The notes beneath the pieces are model-generated. The model did no database searches, was not told the origin of the DNA, and was given only the letters and a program-made list of their open reading frames with translations. From the NCBI RefSeq assembly GCF_030450055.1, contig NZ_CP118480.1, positions 2,383,415-2,447,414 on the forward strand: a DNA stretch of 64,000 nt. Reading direction: 5' to 3'. The position numbers and the translations under genes were made by a program. The DNA is from Gallaecimonas kandeliae. Lineage in GTDB: Bacteria; Pseudomonadota; Gammaproteobacteria; Enterobacterales; Gallaecimonadaceae. Each line of letters opens with the position of its first letter. Position 1 is the first letter of the stretch. Below, in pieces: positions 7,121-15,635 of this stretch.

Positions 7121-7221
7121 TTGAAAATCCTTCCAAGCATAGCGGGCCCTGCCGGCCCTGCTGCGGGGCTTGATTTGCGCCCCGCATTCTGGAACACTGC
7201 GGCCGTCCTGAATTTTTAGGA

Positions 7222-7382
7222 CCAGAAGAGGTGCGTTAACCAGGTAACCAGCCAGAGGGGCCCTTTCCCTTTGACGGCTGGCCAGGGGGCTGACGCCGAG
7301 ATGATCCGCGCGGGGGCGCGCGGATCATCGGTCAGACAGGTTGAATCCTGTTGACTGTCACCTGTTGGTGGAGCGCTTCTGG
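7222..7382 (+). promoter_or_regulatory. Lysine riboswitch (L-box) in the lysC leader
   Basis: The leader matches the E. coli lysC riboswitch block by block. The opening strand is CCAGAAGAGGTGCGTTAACC, followed by GGTAACC, GCTGACGCCGAGATGATC, ATCATCGG, CAGGTTGAATCCTG, GTCACC, and the closing strand GGTGGAGCGCTTCTGG. The first and last blocks pair to form the P1 stem. A perfect 13-bp stem with GGGG loop (7300-7329) forms one of the peripheral arms. Binding of lysine should repress lysC. Confidence 0.93.
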
Positions 7383-7422
7383 TACAAGCAGTCCCGCACA
7401 TCTGTGCCTGCCGGTCCCAGGC

Positions 7423-11471: not shown

Positions 11472-11510
11472 TGGCTTCACTGCCTGATGGCGCGATTTGG
11501 GATGGTGAGG

Positions 11511-11535
11511 AAGCCGGGTTTATCCCGGTTTTATT
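11511..11535 (+). terminator. Terminator after the rimK operon
   Basis: CCGGG (11514-11518) pairs with CCCGG (11524-11528), extended by A-T pairs, around loop TTTAT. A T-rich tail follows. It marks the end of ordinary chromosome before the AT-rich block. Confidence 0.75.
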
Positions 11536-11605
11536 TTGCTTGATCGGCTGGCGCCGGAACTGACTGGCATCGTTTCCTTTTAGCGTCCTGATTGACCTTT
11601 AAGCT

Positions 11606-11634
11606 CCTTTGTTCGCCGGGTCCCGCCCCGGCAG
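11606..11634 (+). repeat. GC-rich 29-bp repeat, copy 1
   Basis: Matches copy 3 (15120-15148, opposite orientation) at 27 of 29 positions. The core is TTCGCCGGGTCCCG followed by a CCCGGCAG-type end, itself partly palindromic. It sits at the left edge of the AT-rich block, about 70 bases after the rimK-operon terminator. Confidence 0.8.
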
Positions 11635-11639
11635 CCTGG

Positions 11640-11880
11640 GCCTAGCATTTAGGTACGTGAAAGCAGCTTAGAGGCTTCGAATCATCCGCTGCTTTAGCTT
11701 ACTACTCATACATAGCCGATTACCAAGAGCTACAGCTGAAGCTGCCGTGGACATTGGCAGTTTACAAGTTTGTATTTTTTGGTCAGAGTAGTTGCTGAGA
11801 TTGCACAAGTTTCAGCAGCAGAACGGCAGCAGTTTTAATGGGAAGTGTGGCAAAAAACACAGATGAAATAGGAGCTAGCT
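11640..11880 (+). other. AT-rich non-coding stretch before the CoiA-like gene
   Basis: I see no credible gene here. Composition shifts from the GC-rich host to AT-rich. The end holds the ribosome site AGGAG (11870-11874) of the next gene. A promoter is likely but I could not choose one. Confidence 0.5.
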
Positions 11881-12834
11881 TTGTCACTAGATATCGCATA
11901 CAGCATCGAAGCGGAAGACTATTTAGATCCGGATAGAGCATACGATCTTTACTGGGCAGGAATCATAAGTGACAAGAAAATGTTTCTATGCCCGGGAACT
12001 GATTGCAGTGCGCAAGTCACTTGTGCGAACTTGGATGAAGACCTCCAAGACATGAAGGTAGTCCCCCATTATAGGGTGTATGGAAAGCATAATGAATGCT
12101 GTGAAGTCTTTAATCAAATCCCACTCAACTTACATTATGAGAATGGACTTTCCGAGAAAGAAGAAAGACGATCCATTGACGAGTCAGTCGTAGATGTTTT
12201 TTTACTAGAAAGGCCAGACTCTTACTATGACGAGCCCAAGCAAACCAACGAAGGCGCTCAAAAAGCAATCATTAAATCAGATTCAACAAAATCCATAAAG
12301 AAAAAGACTCTCAGAGAGAATGGAAGCATCGGTAACATATACTCTGTGAGAACCGTCGTCAGTCGATATATTCGGTATAGAAAAGAAGGCTCTCTGGACC
12401 TAAGACGAGTTAACATCCAAGGAAAGGATGTGCAGTACAAGAGCATTTTCAAATGCATATGGGAGCAAGATCTATCTTACCTTCCAGACCATCCTGTAAT
12501 TTATTACGGATGGGCATTTGTTAATAGACTTCCTTCAGGTCAGGGATATCAAATTAAGTTCAAAAAGAAATTTAAAAAAGAAAGTGATGACTTCACTTCA
12601 ACCATTATGATTAGTGATCGATTAATAGAGAGTTATAAAATAAAGAAACTTGTATCAACAAGGCTTCAGAAAATATTCACTAGTGAGAAGCCGACAGCCT
12701 TTGTATTTATTTATGGAAAACCCGAGCAAAAAGAATCAAAATCTGGAAACAGATACGCTAATTTCTCTATATCCAACTTGGATATGATTGATATCAACTA
12801 TGACTGCCCCTTACCAAAAGAATATAACAAATGA
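11881..12834 (+). CDS. Unknown protein with an N-terminal CoiA-like zinc-finger pattern
   Basis: 317 residues from a TTG start preceded by AGGAG at six bases; the first in-frame ATG is internal and would cut the finger. The N-terminus has C37-X4-C42, His63 in PHYRVY, and H70-X2-CC (73-74). This cysteine/histidine layout resembles the small finger before the nuclease domain of CoiA-like proteins. A Lys-rich, probably flexible middle (about 115-150) follows, then a C-terminal part rich in alternating hydrophobics with KSGNRYANFSISNLD, possibly an OB-like fold. I see no nuclease motif. Codon use is AT-rich, unlike neighbours, indicating transfer. Function unknown. Confidence 0.75.
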   Translation: MSLDIAYSIEAEDYLDPDRAYDLYWAGIISDKKMFLCPGTDCSAQVTCANLDEDLQDMKVVPHYRVYGKHNECCEVFNQIPLNLHYENGLSEKEERRSIDESVVDVFLLERPDSYYDEPKQTNEGAQKAIIKSDSTKSIKKKTLRENGSIGNIYSVRTVVSRYIRYRKEGSLDLRRVNIQGKDVQYKSIFKCIWEQDLSYLPDHPVIYYGWAFVNRLPSGQGYQIKFKKKFKKESDDFTSTIMISDRLIESYKIKKLVSTRLQKIFTSEKPTAFVFIYGKPEQKESKSGNRYANFSISNLDMIDINYDCPLPKEYNK

Positions 12835-12910
12835 AGTTTTCTATATCATCTACACCCCATTAAGTAGAATCGGACAGGCTCGTTATCAGATTTAGAACTA
12901 TTGTCATGCT

Positions 12911-12939
12911 CTTTTATTCGCCGGGTCCCGGCCCGGCAG
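12911..12939 (+). repeat. GC-rich 29-bp repeat, copy 2
   Basis: Agrees with copy 3 at 28 of 29 positions in inverted orientation; 27 bases (12913-12939 and 15120-15146) are exact reverse complements. It abuts the left end of the large palindrome. Confidence 0.85.
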
Positions 12940-12943
12940 CCGG

Positions 12944-13382
12944 GGTACTTTTGTTTCGGCAAAAGTACCCAAAACCACCGCCCCGACGTTCCGCGATGTC
13001 CTTACCTCTGGTCGCTTGCCGCTGACCGCTGCGTACGGTTCCCGACGCGTCCTCCGCTCGCTCGACATCCCTGTCTCGCGCCAGCTCACGCTCCCGACGG
13101 TAAGGCGCTCCACTAAAAAGGGGCTCCAACAGCGGGCAGCTTCGATAGATTTGTTTTCATATCGCAACGCACCATGCCTTCAACGAAGCTACCCGCTCTT
13201 ATGCCCGTTAAGTGCAGCGCTGAGCCGGCGGGAGTGAAGGGACAGCTGAGACAGGGATGTCGAGGCAGGTGAGTACGCGTCGGGACACGCGTATGAACCG
13301 GTGCACCGGGAACGACCAGAGGCGAGGATCAAGCGAAACGCAGGGCGATGGTTTTGCCTACTTTTTCCGAAAAAAAAGTAGG
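12944..13382. repeat. 439-bp imperfect palindrome (possible MITE-like or structured mobile element)
   Basis: Matching blocks share one centre near 13163. The tips are 12944-12980 and 13346-13382 (about 30 of 37 matched). CCTCTGGTCG at 13005-13014 matches 13313-13322, CCCGACGCGT at 13041-13050 matches 13275-13284, and CTCGACATCCCTGTCTC at 13061-13077 matches 13248-13264 exactly. AGCGGGCAGCTTCG at 13131-13144 matches 13184-13197 with one mismatch. The central loop is 39 bases. Each tip also carries its own small hairpin, such as GTACTTTTG...CAAAAGTAC. No open frame in it looks coding. It could be a non-autonomous element or a long structured RNA. Confidence 0.9.
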
Positions 13383-13633
13383 GCGCGTGCAGGGGCGCCC
13401 CCCTGCATATAAATGAGTTATGAGTTCATAACCAAAGGTTAAGAAGAATGCTCAACAAGCGATAGGAATAAGTAAACACGCCAACTAATTTATATTTCTT
13501 GGATATAAAATATAACTCTAGGTCAAAAAGTTAAGTTTCACAAAGATATCTTTAAAAAATAGTTAGGACACTCCCCTAAAATTAGAGCATGGGAATAATG
13601 TGTTGGTGAAAAAAAACATTCACCCGCTAAAAT
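13383..13633. other. AT-rich non-coding spacer downstream of the HEPN gene
   Basis: A small GC hairpin (GCAGGGG/CCCCCTGC, near 13388-13406) caps the palindrome's right side. The remainder is AT-rich with no credible frame. On the minus strand GGTGAA...TTCACC near 13600-13621 with a T-run could end the HEPN gene transcript. Confidence 0.45.
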
Positions 13634-14947
13634 CTATGGTAATGAACGCTCTTGATATCGGTGAATGACTTCCATTTCTATCCCCAGCTCTCCAAAAAGA
13701 TAGGAAACTATTACTAACTTCATACCAAAACCAATGTTCACGTAGTCTCTAATATTCAATTTACTCATTATTTTCTTAGGCTTGCCCACGTGAGCTATTT
13801 CATTTCTCAGACTACCGATAGCTTCTCCTATTGAAGCACATTCAGCTTTCGAAAGAGACCGTTTTATAAAATCCAGTAGGCTTGGTGAGGAGTATTTACA
13901 CACAGGGTATTCATACTTTAGCTTTTCTTTATCCCTATAAGATATAGCCTCCAAGTTTGTTGCGTAGAGAACTATGTCACAGTGAGCCTCGTGTAGGGTT
14001 CTATAGTTTTTCTCATAGCTGAAGACAGTAGCGATAACTTGATATTCATCATGAAGAGAAATCCATTTCTTCACAACCTTATCCAAGTCAATGCCTTTGC
14101 AATTTATTGGCATTTGGTGATGGTTAATTTTCCTCTTTGCCAATGCTATTGTGCCTGACTCTAGATCGACATTAGAAATAACACTTATCTTTCCATCACC
14201 ATCTTGACGGCCTAATAGAATTTTTTCAGGAAAATTTGGAGCGCCAACAAGCATAGAGAACATCGATGAAATTATCCTCATTATATTAAAAAGCGATTCT
14301 ATTGATTGATTTTCTTTTTCATATACAAAGACAACCTCCAACTCTTTCCTTAGGTACATCCGTTCACTAAGGTCAAGCCCATCTATTTTTTCCAACGCGT
14401 CAGATAAAATCATTCTTGCATTATCATCTTCTATTCTAACTAAATTTTTAAGGCGATTCGTCACATCAGAAAAAGATGCTCTATTTTCTAAACTAAGATT
14501 CCATTTATCGCCACAGATTCTCATCAAAGATTCGTCCTGATAGGGGACGACCTCTAAATTATCCACATCATTGAAAAATGCCTGCATGTGGTTTGTCGCA
14601 AAAGAGCAGTAATTATATTTTGTATCTCCATCTAAAAATTCACCGACAACCAAATAACGAATCTTGTGCTTCCCATATCTGGTTGTTAGCTGCCCAAATC
14701 TTAATCCACTGTTCCTGAAATCAAATGGACCTATGAGAGTGCATCTCTTCCCATTATCTAAAACCCCGATTAGATATTTGTACTCAAACTTAATATCGTT
14801 ATCTGCAATGTTATAGTGAAGGATTAGCCCATCTTCTGGTGAGTAGGTTACCCTACCTGGGAACCTTGTTGCATAAGAATCTTCACTTTGAAAAAACTCT
14901 CCAAAGAATTCGAAATCATCAAGGACGCAAAATAATTTATCTTCCAT
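13634..14947 (-). CDS. ApeA-like HEPN protein, putative anti-phage defence RNase
   Basis: 437 residues. The C-terminus has the HEPN catalytic motif R-X4-H as RNEIAH (residues 381-386), the signature of HEPN RNases in abortive-infection systems. The N-terminal half (FFGEFFQSEDSYATRFPGRV, a GLILHY strand, then CTLIGPFDFRNSGLRFGQ) has the feel of the ApeA N-terminal domain, and the overall length fits ApeA, reported as a single-gene phage defence. I chose the ATG at 14947 because TTGGAG lies 9 bases before it; an ATG at 14980 would add 11 residues. The gene is AT-rich, single and flanked by repeats. Family assignment is from memory. Confidence 0.72.
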   Translation of the reverse strand: MEDKLFCVLDDFEFFGEFFQSEDSYATRFPGRVTYSPEDGLILHYNIADNDIKFEYKYLIGVLDNGKRCTLIGPFDFRNSGLRFGQLTTRYGKHKIRYLVVGEFLDGDTKYNYCSFATNHMQAFFNDVDNLEVVPYQDESLMRICGDKWNLSLENRASFSDVTNRLKNLVRIEDDNARMILSDALEKIDGLDLSERMYLRKELEVVFVYEKENQSIESLFNIMRIISSMFSMLVGAPNFPEKILLGRQDGDGKISVISNVDLESGTIALAKRKINHHQMPINCKGIDLDKVVKKWISLHDEYQVIATVFSYEKNYRTLHEAHCDIVLYATNLEAISYRDKEKLKYEYPVCKYSSPSLLDFIKRSLSKAECASIGEAIGSLRNEIAHVGKPKKIMSKLNIRDYVNIGFGMKLVIVSYLFGELGIEMEVIHRYQERSLP

Positions 14948-15119
14948 TTCATGAGACTCCAAAAAATTCCAAGTTAGCATGTTCCATAATTGTTCAACAG
15001 GTCAAGTAAATGAGGTTTGATATATTTTCAACGAGGCATTGGGATGGATGATGAATCCTTTAGGTATAGCAACCTTAGGCAATGACTGAGTTTCATTAGC
15101 AAGGGGCTGGTTAAACCGC

Positions 15120-15148
15120 CTGCCGGGCCGGGACCCGGCGAATAAAGG
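15120..15148 (-). repeat. GC-rich 29-bp repeat, copy 3 (inverted)
   Basis: Inverted relative to copies 1 and 2. With copy 1 it brackets the whole AT-rich block; with copy 2 it brackets the palindrome and the HEPN gene. Confidence 0.85.
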
Positions 15149-15176
15149 CGTTATCAGGGTAAATGCAATAGAGACT

Positions 15177-15200
15177 AAAAAGCCCCGCCATGGCGAGGCT
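15177..15200 (-). terminator. Terminator of the small cysteine-containing protein gene
   Basis: On the minus strand AGCCTCGCC and GGCGGGGCT form a 9-bp stem (one G-U) followed by TTTTT, 17 bases past the stop codon. Confidence 0.8.
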
Positions 15201-15217
15201 ACAAGCCAAAGAACGGC

Positions 15218-15367
15218 TTAGTTCTTACAGCCATTCTTATCGCAGGTTACCTTTTCACTGGATGATACCCAGTGATCGGCGTGCTTCTTGGTATCGGTGC
15301 CACATCCGGTCGTCCCGCCTTTGGCTCCCTTATGTACAACACCAGTGGGGGTATGTTTAACGGCCAT
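15218..15367 (-). CDS. Small conserved-looking protein of 49 residues with three cysteines
   Basis: Too short for ordinary ORF calling but well supported. It has an ATG with AAAGGAG seven bases upstream, a clean 49-codon frame to TAA, and its own terminator. The product begins MAVKHTPTGVVHKGAKGG and has Cys22, Cys42 and Cys47, the last two as CDKNGC near the end. It is hydrophilic with no signal peptide. The cysteines could bind a metal. I recall similar short hypothetical proteins in marine gammaproteobacteria but know no function. It lies just outside repeat copy 3. Confidence 0.8.
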   Translation of the reverse strand: MAVKHTPTGVVHKGAKGGTTGCGTDTKKHADHWVSSSEKVTCDKNGCKN

Positions 15368-15635
15368 GCAAATCTCCTTTTAATGTGGATCGCATCTTCC
15401 TTAGCTGCATGGGGAGAGCACTTACCACCTCACTGCCCTACTCCAACAGCAGCAACCAAAGATAGCAGAGCACTCAGGGCAAGCGCCCAGCTTACGGCTA
15501 CCAAGCCCCCCAAACGGCAACAAAACCTACATATTTGCAACAAATGTACACCCCGTGCTAAGGGTATAGCGCGCTGCCGCCCAAGGGCGGCGATCAACGC
15601 AACGCCACGGAAAAACACATAAAAAAGGAATATCC
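15368..15635. other. Intergenic region between the small protein gene and the secreted protein gene
   Basis: Should hold divergent promoters, but none is clear enough to call. CCGCCCAAGGGCGG (about 15579-15592) is a short palindrome. A weak minus-strand frame of 62 codons is not supported by a ribosome site. Confidence 0.4.

Follow-up and report, generated by a model that had tools for sequence, protein, structure and literature searches.

A palindrome in Gallaecimonas kandeliae is an inverted pair of a dispersed structured repeat found around low-GC accessory genes

The palindrome and its neighboring genes

The DNA analyzed here, a stretch of 64,000 bp referred to as the window, contains at 12944–13382 a 439-bp imperfect palindrome located between two genes. 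To the left is a forward-strand gene (11881–12834) for a protein of 317 amino acids, which gave one sub-cut-off Pfam match and no PADLOC or NCBIfam match. To the right, on the reverse strand at 13634–14980, is a gene for a 448-amino-acid protein of the ApeA family (anti-phage type); this protein matched PF18862 with 77.8 bits (cut-off 25.5) and HEPN_Apea with 23.7 bits, just below the cut-off of 24.4, and its only match in PADLOC was a weak one, to PDC-S58.

Comparison of the palindrome with its own reverse complement gave a value of 172, whereas 60 dinucleotide shuffles gave a mean of 17.1 (SD 3.5) and a maximum of 28. The 17-bp blocks at 13061–13077 and 13248–13264 were exactly identical, as predicted. 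Folded as single-stranded DNA, positions 12913–13413 reached −154.8 kcal/mol, compared with −94.0 kcal/mol (SD 5.0) for 100 shuffles (z −12.2). The original prediction placed the ends of the arms at 12944 and 13382 and a small hairpin at each tip. The hairpins were present (12943–12970 and 13357–13382), but the arms did not stop there: a second hairpin was found beyond each reported tip, at 12920–12937 and 13388–13407, and the pair therefore extends from 12913 to 13413, or 501 bp.

A DNA search of the window's own genome returned 105 matching stretches, counting both strands and the self-match. The palindrome is thus not a unique sequence, and the expectation that it defines a dispersed element family was borne out; plasmid records gave no match to it. 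Because many of the 105 stretches were about half as long as the query, we took the unit to be a monomer of approximately 211 bp, designated MON, which can be found alone or as inverted pairs flanking accessory genes. The palindrome is secondary: it is an inverted pair of MONs, tips outward, around a slot of about 75 bp, and is the form that a pair takes when its slot is without cargo. Nothing was found in favor of the earlier suggestion of a replication or transfer structure.

The left monomer (12913–13125, forward strand) matched the MON profile with 191.8 bits over model positions 1–214, and the right monomer (13204–13413, reverse strand) matched with 181.3 bits over positions 1–210. In each, the outermost hairpin is designated H1 (z −3.14 for the fold of 12918–12985 on the left and −2.95 for 13342–13410 on the right) and the next one H2, identified by fold analysis; both are on the forward strand at the left tip and on the reverse strand at the right tip. 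An alternative hairpin, H1′, overlaps H1 at the left tip, and its end immediately precedes the T-rich arm of H2. The inner part of each monomer is a multibranch domain whose covarying fold is on the outward-reading strand, at 12985–13125 (reverse) and 13200–13342 (forward). These domains scored 153.7 bits (E 2.4e-31) and 137.4 bits (E 7.3e-28), respectively, with R1, a covariance model built from 61 MON multibranch domains, the two from the window included. By the R1 boundaries the central slot is 74 bp (13126–13199), and an inner inverted repeat (13131–13144 with 13184–13197) could be read in it by eye.

Two solo copies of the H1 tip were found by blastn farther out: one at 11603–11640 (forward strand; left-arm positions 9–46, 89%), to the left of the 317-amino-acid gene, and one at 15116–15146 (reverse strand; left-arm positions 14–44, 97%), to the right of the ApeA-like gene. 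The window copy is therefore an empty pair between these two genes, with a solo H1 tip beyond each.

The MON family, its structure and its relation to TwoAYGGAY

Iterated profile searches of the window and 40 fetched loci from three genomes gave 107 MON matches, 61 of them full length. At the DNA level, matches were present in 5 of 40 genomes, all of one genus and including the window's own. The monomers are 60–95% identical and their flanks are mosaic. From tip to inner end, the order is H1, H2 (TACTTTg...cAAAGTA), and the multibranch domain, with the end near GGCGCTxCACTTAA.

Among the 61 aligned multibranch domains, 21 of 26 predicted pairs showed compensatory double changes. In the 59 distinct rows, 97.3% of the paired cells could pair, compared with 78.6% in shuffles, and none of 500 shuffles equaled that value; the signal was lost when the pairing partners were slid. 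On the strand reading from inner end to tip there were 70 G·U cells and 7 A·C cells (our own tally, with one mostly U-G pair excluded), a count that is favored because the consensus was predicted on that same strand. H1 and H1′, which overlap at the tip, both showed correlated changes in the 61 copies (columns 55–70: CG 25, GC 15, TA 14), and in 53 of the 61 the T-rich arm of H2 was immediately preceded by a stem of no fewer than 5 pairs. Taken singly, the two window multibranch domains gave no better folds than shuffled sequence on either strand (z 0.64 and −1.04 for the outward strand). We conclude that MON is a dispersed family with a covarying multibranch structure, and on this point the suggestion of a structured nucleic acid stands.

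Between 12500 and 13900 there were seven terminator-like sites where 1.7 (SD 1.3) were expected, three directed inward, three outward, and one elsewhere; the T run after the tip hairpin is broken by a C or G. Neither monomer of the window pair showed a promoter-like site at its inner end. REP/RAYT elements were considered as a separate candidate and rejected: PF01797 was present in genomes G002 and G003 and gave no match in G000, G001, and G004, and no RAYT was found in the window's genome.

When R1 was applied to 394 genomes of the order, 14 had matches, five belonging to the window's genus and nine to five other genera; the latter matches were weak (E 2e-6 to 9e-4, with the best eight or fewer candidates scored per genome). 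The Rfam model for TwoAYGGAY (RF01731) matched 6 of 12 of the other-genus R1 loci at the same place and on the same strand with 30.8–39.1 bits, under its 43-bit gathering cut-off, and matched none of eight same-genus loci at MON. The window copy scored 18.1 bits (E 5.9), and the window contained no TwoAYGGAY match at the gathering cut-off. In the reverse comparison, 11 TwoAYGGAY loci were searched with R1; one place, in L294, matched with E 3.4e-4 and five more places weakly (E 0.04–0.73), each match lying inside a TwoAYGGAY copy and on its strand. Judged by eye, the AYGGAY-like loops and the order of parts agree between MON and TwoAYGGAY. TwoAYGGAY (clan CL00106) likewise has a tip hairpin, an ACTTT/AAAGT hairpin, and a two-hairpin domain in that order, and likewise occurs in inverted pairs around low-GC cargo; MON differs in scoring below the cut-off (39.1 bits for its best relative) and in adjoining integron attI sites and ops elements in its genus. 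Together, the covariance-model comparisons weakly link MON, at scores below the Rfam cut-off, to TwoAYGGAY, an RNA motif without known function. TwoAYGGAY itself was found above the cut-off in 41 of 197 genomes, several with at least 13 copies, and the cited portion of Weinberg 2010 (PMC2864571) lists it as a probable RNA that is not cis-regulatory.

At curated cut-offs, the only Rfam match in the window was a lysine riboswitch (7218–7386, forward strand, 97.4 bits). In one fetched locus, L218:2783–3031 resembled the Yersinia sRNA Ysr141 (65.3 bits, below the cut-off of 196).

Orientation, cargo and integron association

MON orientation in the genus was examined for neighbors scoring above 60 bits and lying within 10 kb of each other. 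Nineteen opposite pairs had their tips outward and two had them inward; same-way neighbors numbered 12 and 7. In 20 TwoAYGGAY regions, picked by hand and by eye mostly because they held neighbors, there were 12 tips-out pairs, no tips-in pair, and 21 same-way pairs, and a hand count gave at least 14 tips-out and no tips-in pairs among the matches listed. Border orientation is thus nearly fixed, with only the two exceptions in the genus. In 36 of the 42 monomers with both flanks free, the inner flank had a lower GC content than the outer (48.0% vs. 57.5%, p 3e-6), and the same was true of 12 of 16 TwoAYGGAY copies (36.3% vs. 43.5%, p 0.003). The contrast was sharpest at L294, where GC content dropped from 65% outside the borders to 36% within them. 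MON and TwoAYGGAY thus flank accessory genes of low GC content and keep to one orientation in doing so.

Two of the 12 tips-out TwoAYGGAY pairs were empty, with slots of 77 and 74 bp, compared with 74 bp in the window; the other ten had gaps of more than 500 bp. At a threshold of E 1e-5, the cargo of seven of these ten matched PADLOC (L276, L277, L282, L285, L286, L290, and L294), and that of L278, L287, and L288 did not. Two of eight control genes outside the borders also matched, by broad models. In the window's genus, 8 of 10 proteins from the inner sides in a hand-picked set matched PADLOC, two of them weakly; the matches included PDC-S46, PDC-S06, PDC-S20, RexA, NsnA, and PDC-M09A. Ppl-like proteins of 887–888 amino acids (PADLOC) lie inside TwoAYGGAY pairs of two genera (L285:2232–4895 and L294:2149–4815), and one of their genes has 34% GC in surroundings of about 65% outside the borders. 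The L286 pair encloses a Septu-like PtuA/PDC-M01 pair, and outside it is a gene for a 339-amino-acid protein (L286:756–1775) with a sub-cut-off Y1_Tnp score of 21.0 of 23 bits.

Many monomers in the genus are followed by a module of about 300 bp, module B. In L048 it begins 14 bp from the gene for an integron integrase (L048:2299–3255, reverse strand; TIGR02249 397.3 bits, cut-off 265), and for this reason we read module B as attI (L048:3269–3560). The attC of the first cassette started with the exact junction complement in 16 of 24 attI copies, compared with 65 of 4800 random words; the other eight showed no such attC in the 4 kb or the fetched sequence examined. In the genus, loci flanked by MON thus contain intI, attI, and cassettes with attC, as chromosomal integrons do. 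They differ in that the window's genome, searched with one module B query (15 rows, our own grouping), has 12 distinct attI places and one intI; each of the 12 adjoins a MON, L319 being counted, and at least 11 attI-like places have no neighboring intI. Its five tyrosine-recombinase matches were the one IntI, XerC, XerD, and two others. G002 and G003 likewise have an intact IntI; in G004, a sister species in which six of nine recombinase matches were checked, the IntI has an internal stop (L108, G004:C9:141931–142467); and none of the six tyrosine-recombinase matches in G001 was an IntI. Window positions 11480–15400 gave no attI profile match and no convincing attC, with one strict attC scan that also missed known attC sites. 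We considered MON itself as an attC site and rejected this, because the scans found none there; as the strict scan missed known sites, the junction test was used in its place.

Five similar composites of a MON pair and attI were found (L040, L042, L044, L049, and L054). A 304-amino-acid DDE transposase recurs in L052 (L052:3920–5149), L041, L047, and L051; in L052 it lies between two monomer parts, as if inserted. In Acinetobacter, a 439-bp MITE reportedly flanks class 1 integrons, and integron mobilization units are also described. The likeness to MON, drawn from description only, is that repeats flank integron material, and the equal length seems to be a coincidence; unlike those systems, there are here many attI platforms without intI and a single intI in the window's genome.

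The window and the 40 loci (398,940 bases) were scanned with the ops consensus. Nineteen of the 20 occurrences lay beyond the tip of a MON at a distance of 27–234 bp, sharing its strand and facing inward, in loci chosen for MON, where 234 bp beside each of the 107 matches amounts to a few percent of both strands. Eighteen of these 19 were in loci holding attI, the intI locus among them. Rfam JUMPstart scored above its cut-off in L046, L057, L220, and L222, the last at the same place as L057. No ops was found in the window or in the 24 TwoAYGGAY loci checked. A further shared module of about 165 bp lies between ops and tip at L043:2778–2945, L048:1830–1996, and L049:2752–2918.

Comparison of related genomes showed that borders can persist while cargo differs. 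G109 and G206 have identical RpsB proteins. At their map-rpsB sites, the rpsB side is 96% identical over 2847 bp, and the other side and the border segments also align; the cargo between them, 2.1 kb in G109 and 4.2 kb in G206, is unalignable. It comprises a GmrSD-like gene and a SIR2-like match below its cut-off in G109, and YefM/YoeB, a C5 methyltransferase, and an AAA ATPase in G206. The rplI site holds a KAP-type NTPase in G109 and a SocA/Panacea-domain gene plus a small gene in G206. In G206, both map-rpsB borders were below the Rfam cut-off and only one rplI border was above it. Thus, two close relatives have kept their borders at two sites around different cargo. MON also occurs in three species with differing neighbors at the guaA site, the site of L051, L061, and L071, and the window site.

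The presence of a border also differs between species: MON is absent from the window site in G003, and the motif was present in 2 (G109 itself and G216) of the 20 rplI loci scanned, out of 23 in all. Together with the dispersed, multicopy distribution, the inverted pairs around passenger genes, and the five similar attI composites, this is what would be seen if MON were the terminal repeat of a non-autonomous transposon of the MITE or TIME-COMP type, with a putative transposase acting in trans and inverted pairs bracketing passengers. The original prediction named a MITE-like element as one possibility; the following points weigh against it. Inspection by eye revealed no target-site duplication at the window pair, and no precise empty site was obtained: the rplI locus gave no clean junction because G206 carries a decayed copy, and the L049 flank was uninformative, as relatives had matches to the first of its two genes but none to the second. 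The Y1 transposase family was not found in G000, G001, or G004; the monomers are mosaic at their flanks and too variable for a uniform element; and borders persist while cargo changes. The composites described in the cited portion of PMC13367494 are similar to MON pairs in that short non-coding repeats flank passengers and the transposase is not inside. MON differs from them in being chromosomal and covarying, nearly fixed in orientation, and located at conserved sites with changing cargo, and the Tn3-type ends and target duplications of those elements are not established for MON. On balance we consider transposition an unlikely explanation.

Proposed role of the border

We propose that MON is a structured border of exchangeable islands of foreign genes, which shields the cargo from outside transcription and, in the integron subset, is gated by RfaH; we regard the chances that this is correct as even. 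Two MONs would face each other, tips outward, with cargo between their inner ends consisting of genes for defence or toxin-antitoxin systems or, within the window's genus, attI and cassettes; a pair lacking cargo would meet as the window palindrome. Read inward from core genes, the tip presents a hairpin followed directly by a T-rich run, an anatomy at which outside transcription should stop. RfaH is described in the cited portion of PMC2871177 as an antiterminator that acts after recruitment at ops. At attI loci, an ops 27–234 bp outside the tip would load RfaH and allow polymerase to pass the barrier into the AT-rich cassettes. This resembles RfaH/ops (JUMPstart) operons, in which ops also lies ahead of foreign low-GC genes; at the MON loci, in contrast, ops precedes a large covarying element and attI. 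Because the window pair and the 24 TwoAYGGAY loci have no ops, an RfaH step would be confined to a subset.

In the outward direction, the element would form the last part of cargo transcripts as a conserved multibranch RNA, whose fold is supported by covariation. The same covariation on the outward strand, the excess of G·U over A·C cells, and the listing of TwoAYGGAY as a probable RNA in the cited portion of PMC2864571 would also fit MON and TwoAYGGAY being functional RNAs in their own right, such as regulators or partners of defence genes, found at borders because they are inherited with the cargo. We consider this improbable, because the G·U count is biased toward the strand of the prediction, neither window monomer showed a promoter-like site at its inner end, and a border role better explains the strict orientation and pairing.

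Under the border proposal, cargo would be exchanged between borders that themselves stay in place, probably through recombination of border copies with one another. It is very improbable that the repeats are mere homologous anchors, with ordinary homologous recombination swapping the cargo and structure and orientation having no function of their own, since that reading fits the conserved borders with different cargo and the mosaic copies but leaves unexplained a structure kept despite sequence change, a nearly fixed orientation, and a consistent placement of ops.

A broader proposal, put forward tentatively and with rather less confidence than the border role itself, is that the TwoAYGGAY superfamily serves in gammaproteobacteria as an exchange border for anti-phage genes and as a transcription gate, and that in one genus fusion with an integron produced a network of RfaH-gated attI platforms, scattered along the chromosome, on all of which one integrase would act in trans. 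Within the limited search terms used, the literature gave no account of attI platforms dispersed in a genome and none of defence genes bordered by TwoAYGGAY. TwoAYGGAY, a probable RNA without a known role, gains a place, at the border of islands of defence genes. How such genes come to be placed and swapped at fixed sites in the chromosome, with no obvious transposase, becomes testable, and inverted R1/TwoAYGGAY pairs offer a search handle for unrecognized defence genes, such as that for the 317-amino-acid protein in the window. Dispersed attI sites served by one integrase would alter the view of the chromosomal integron as a single locus.
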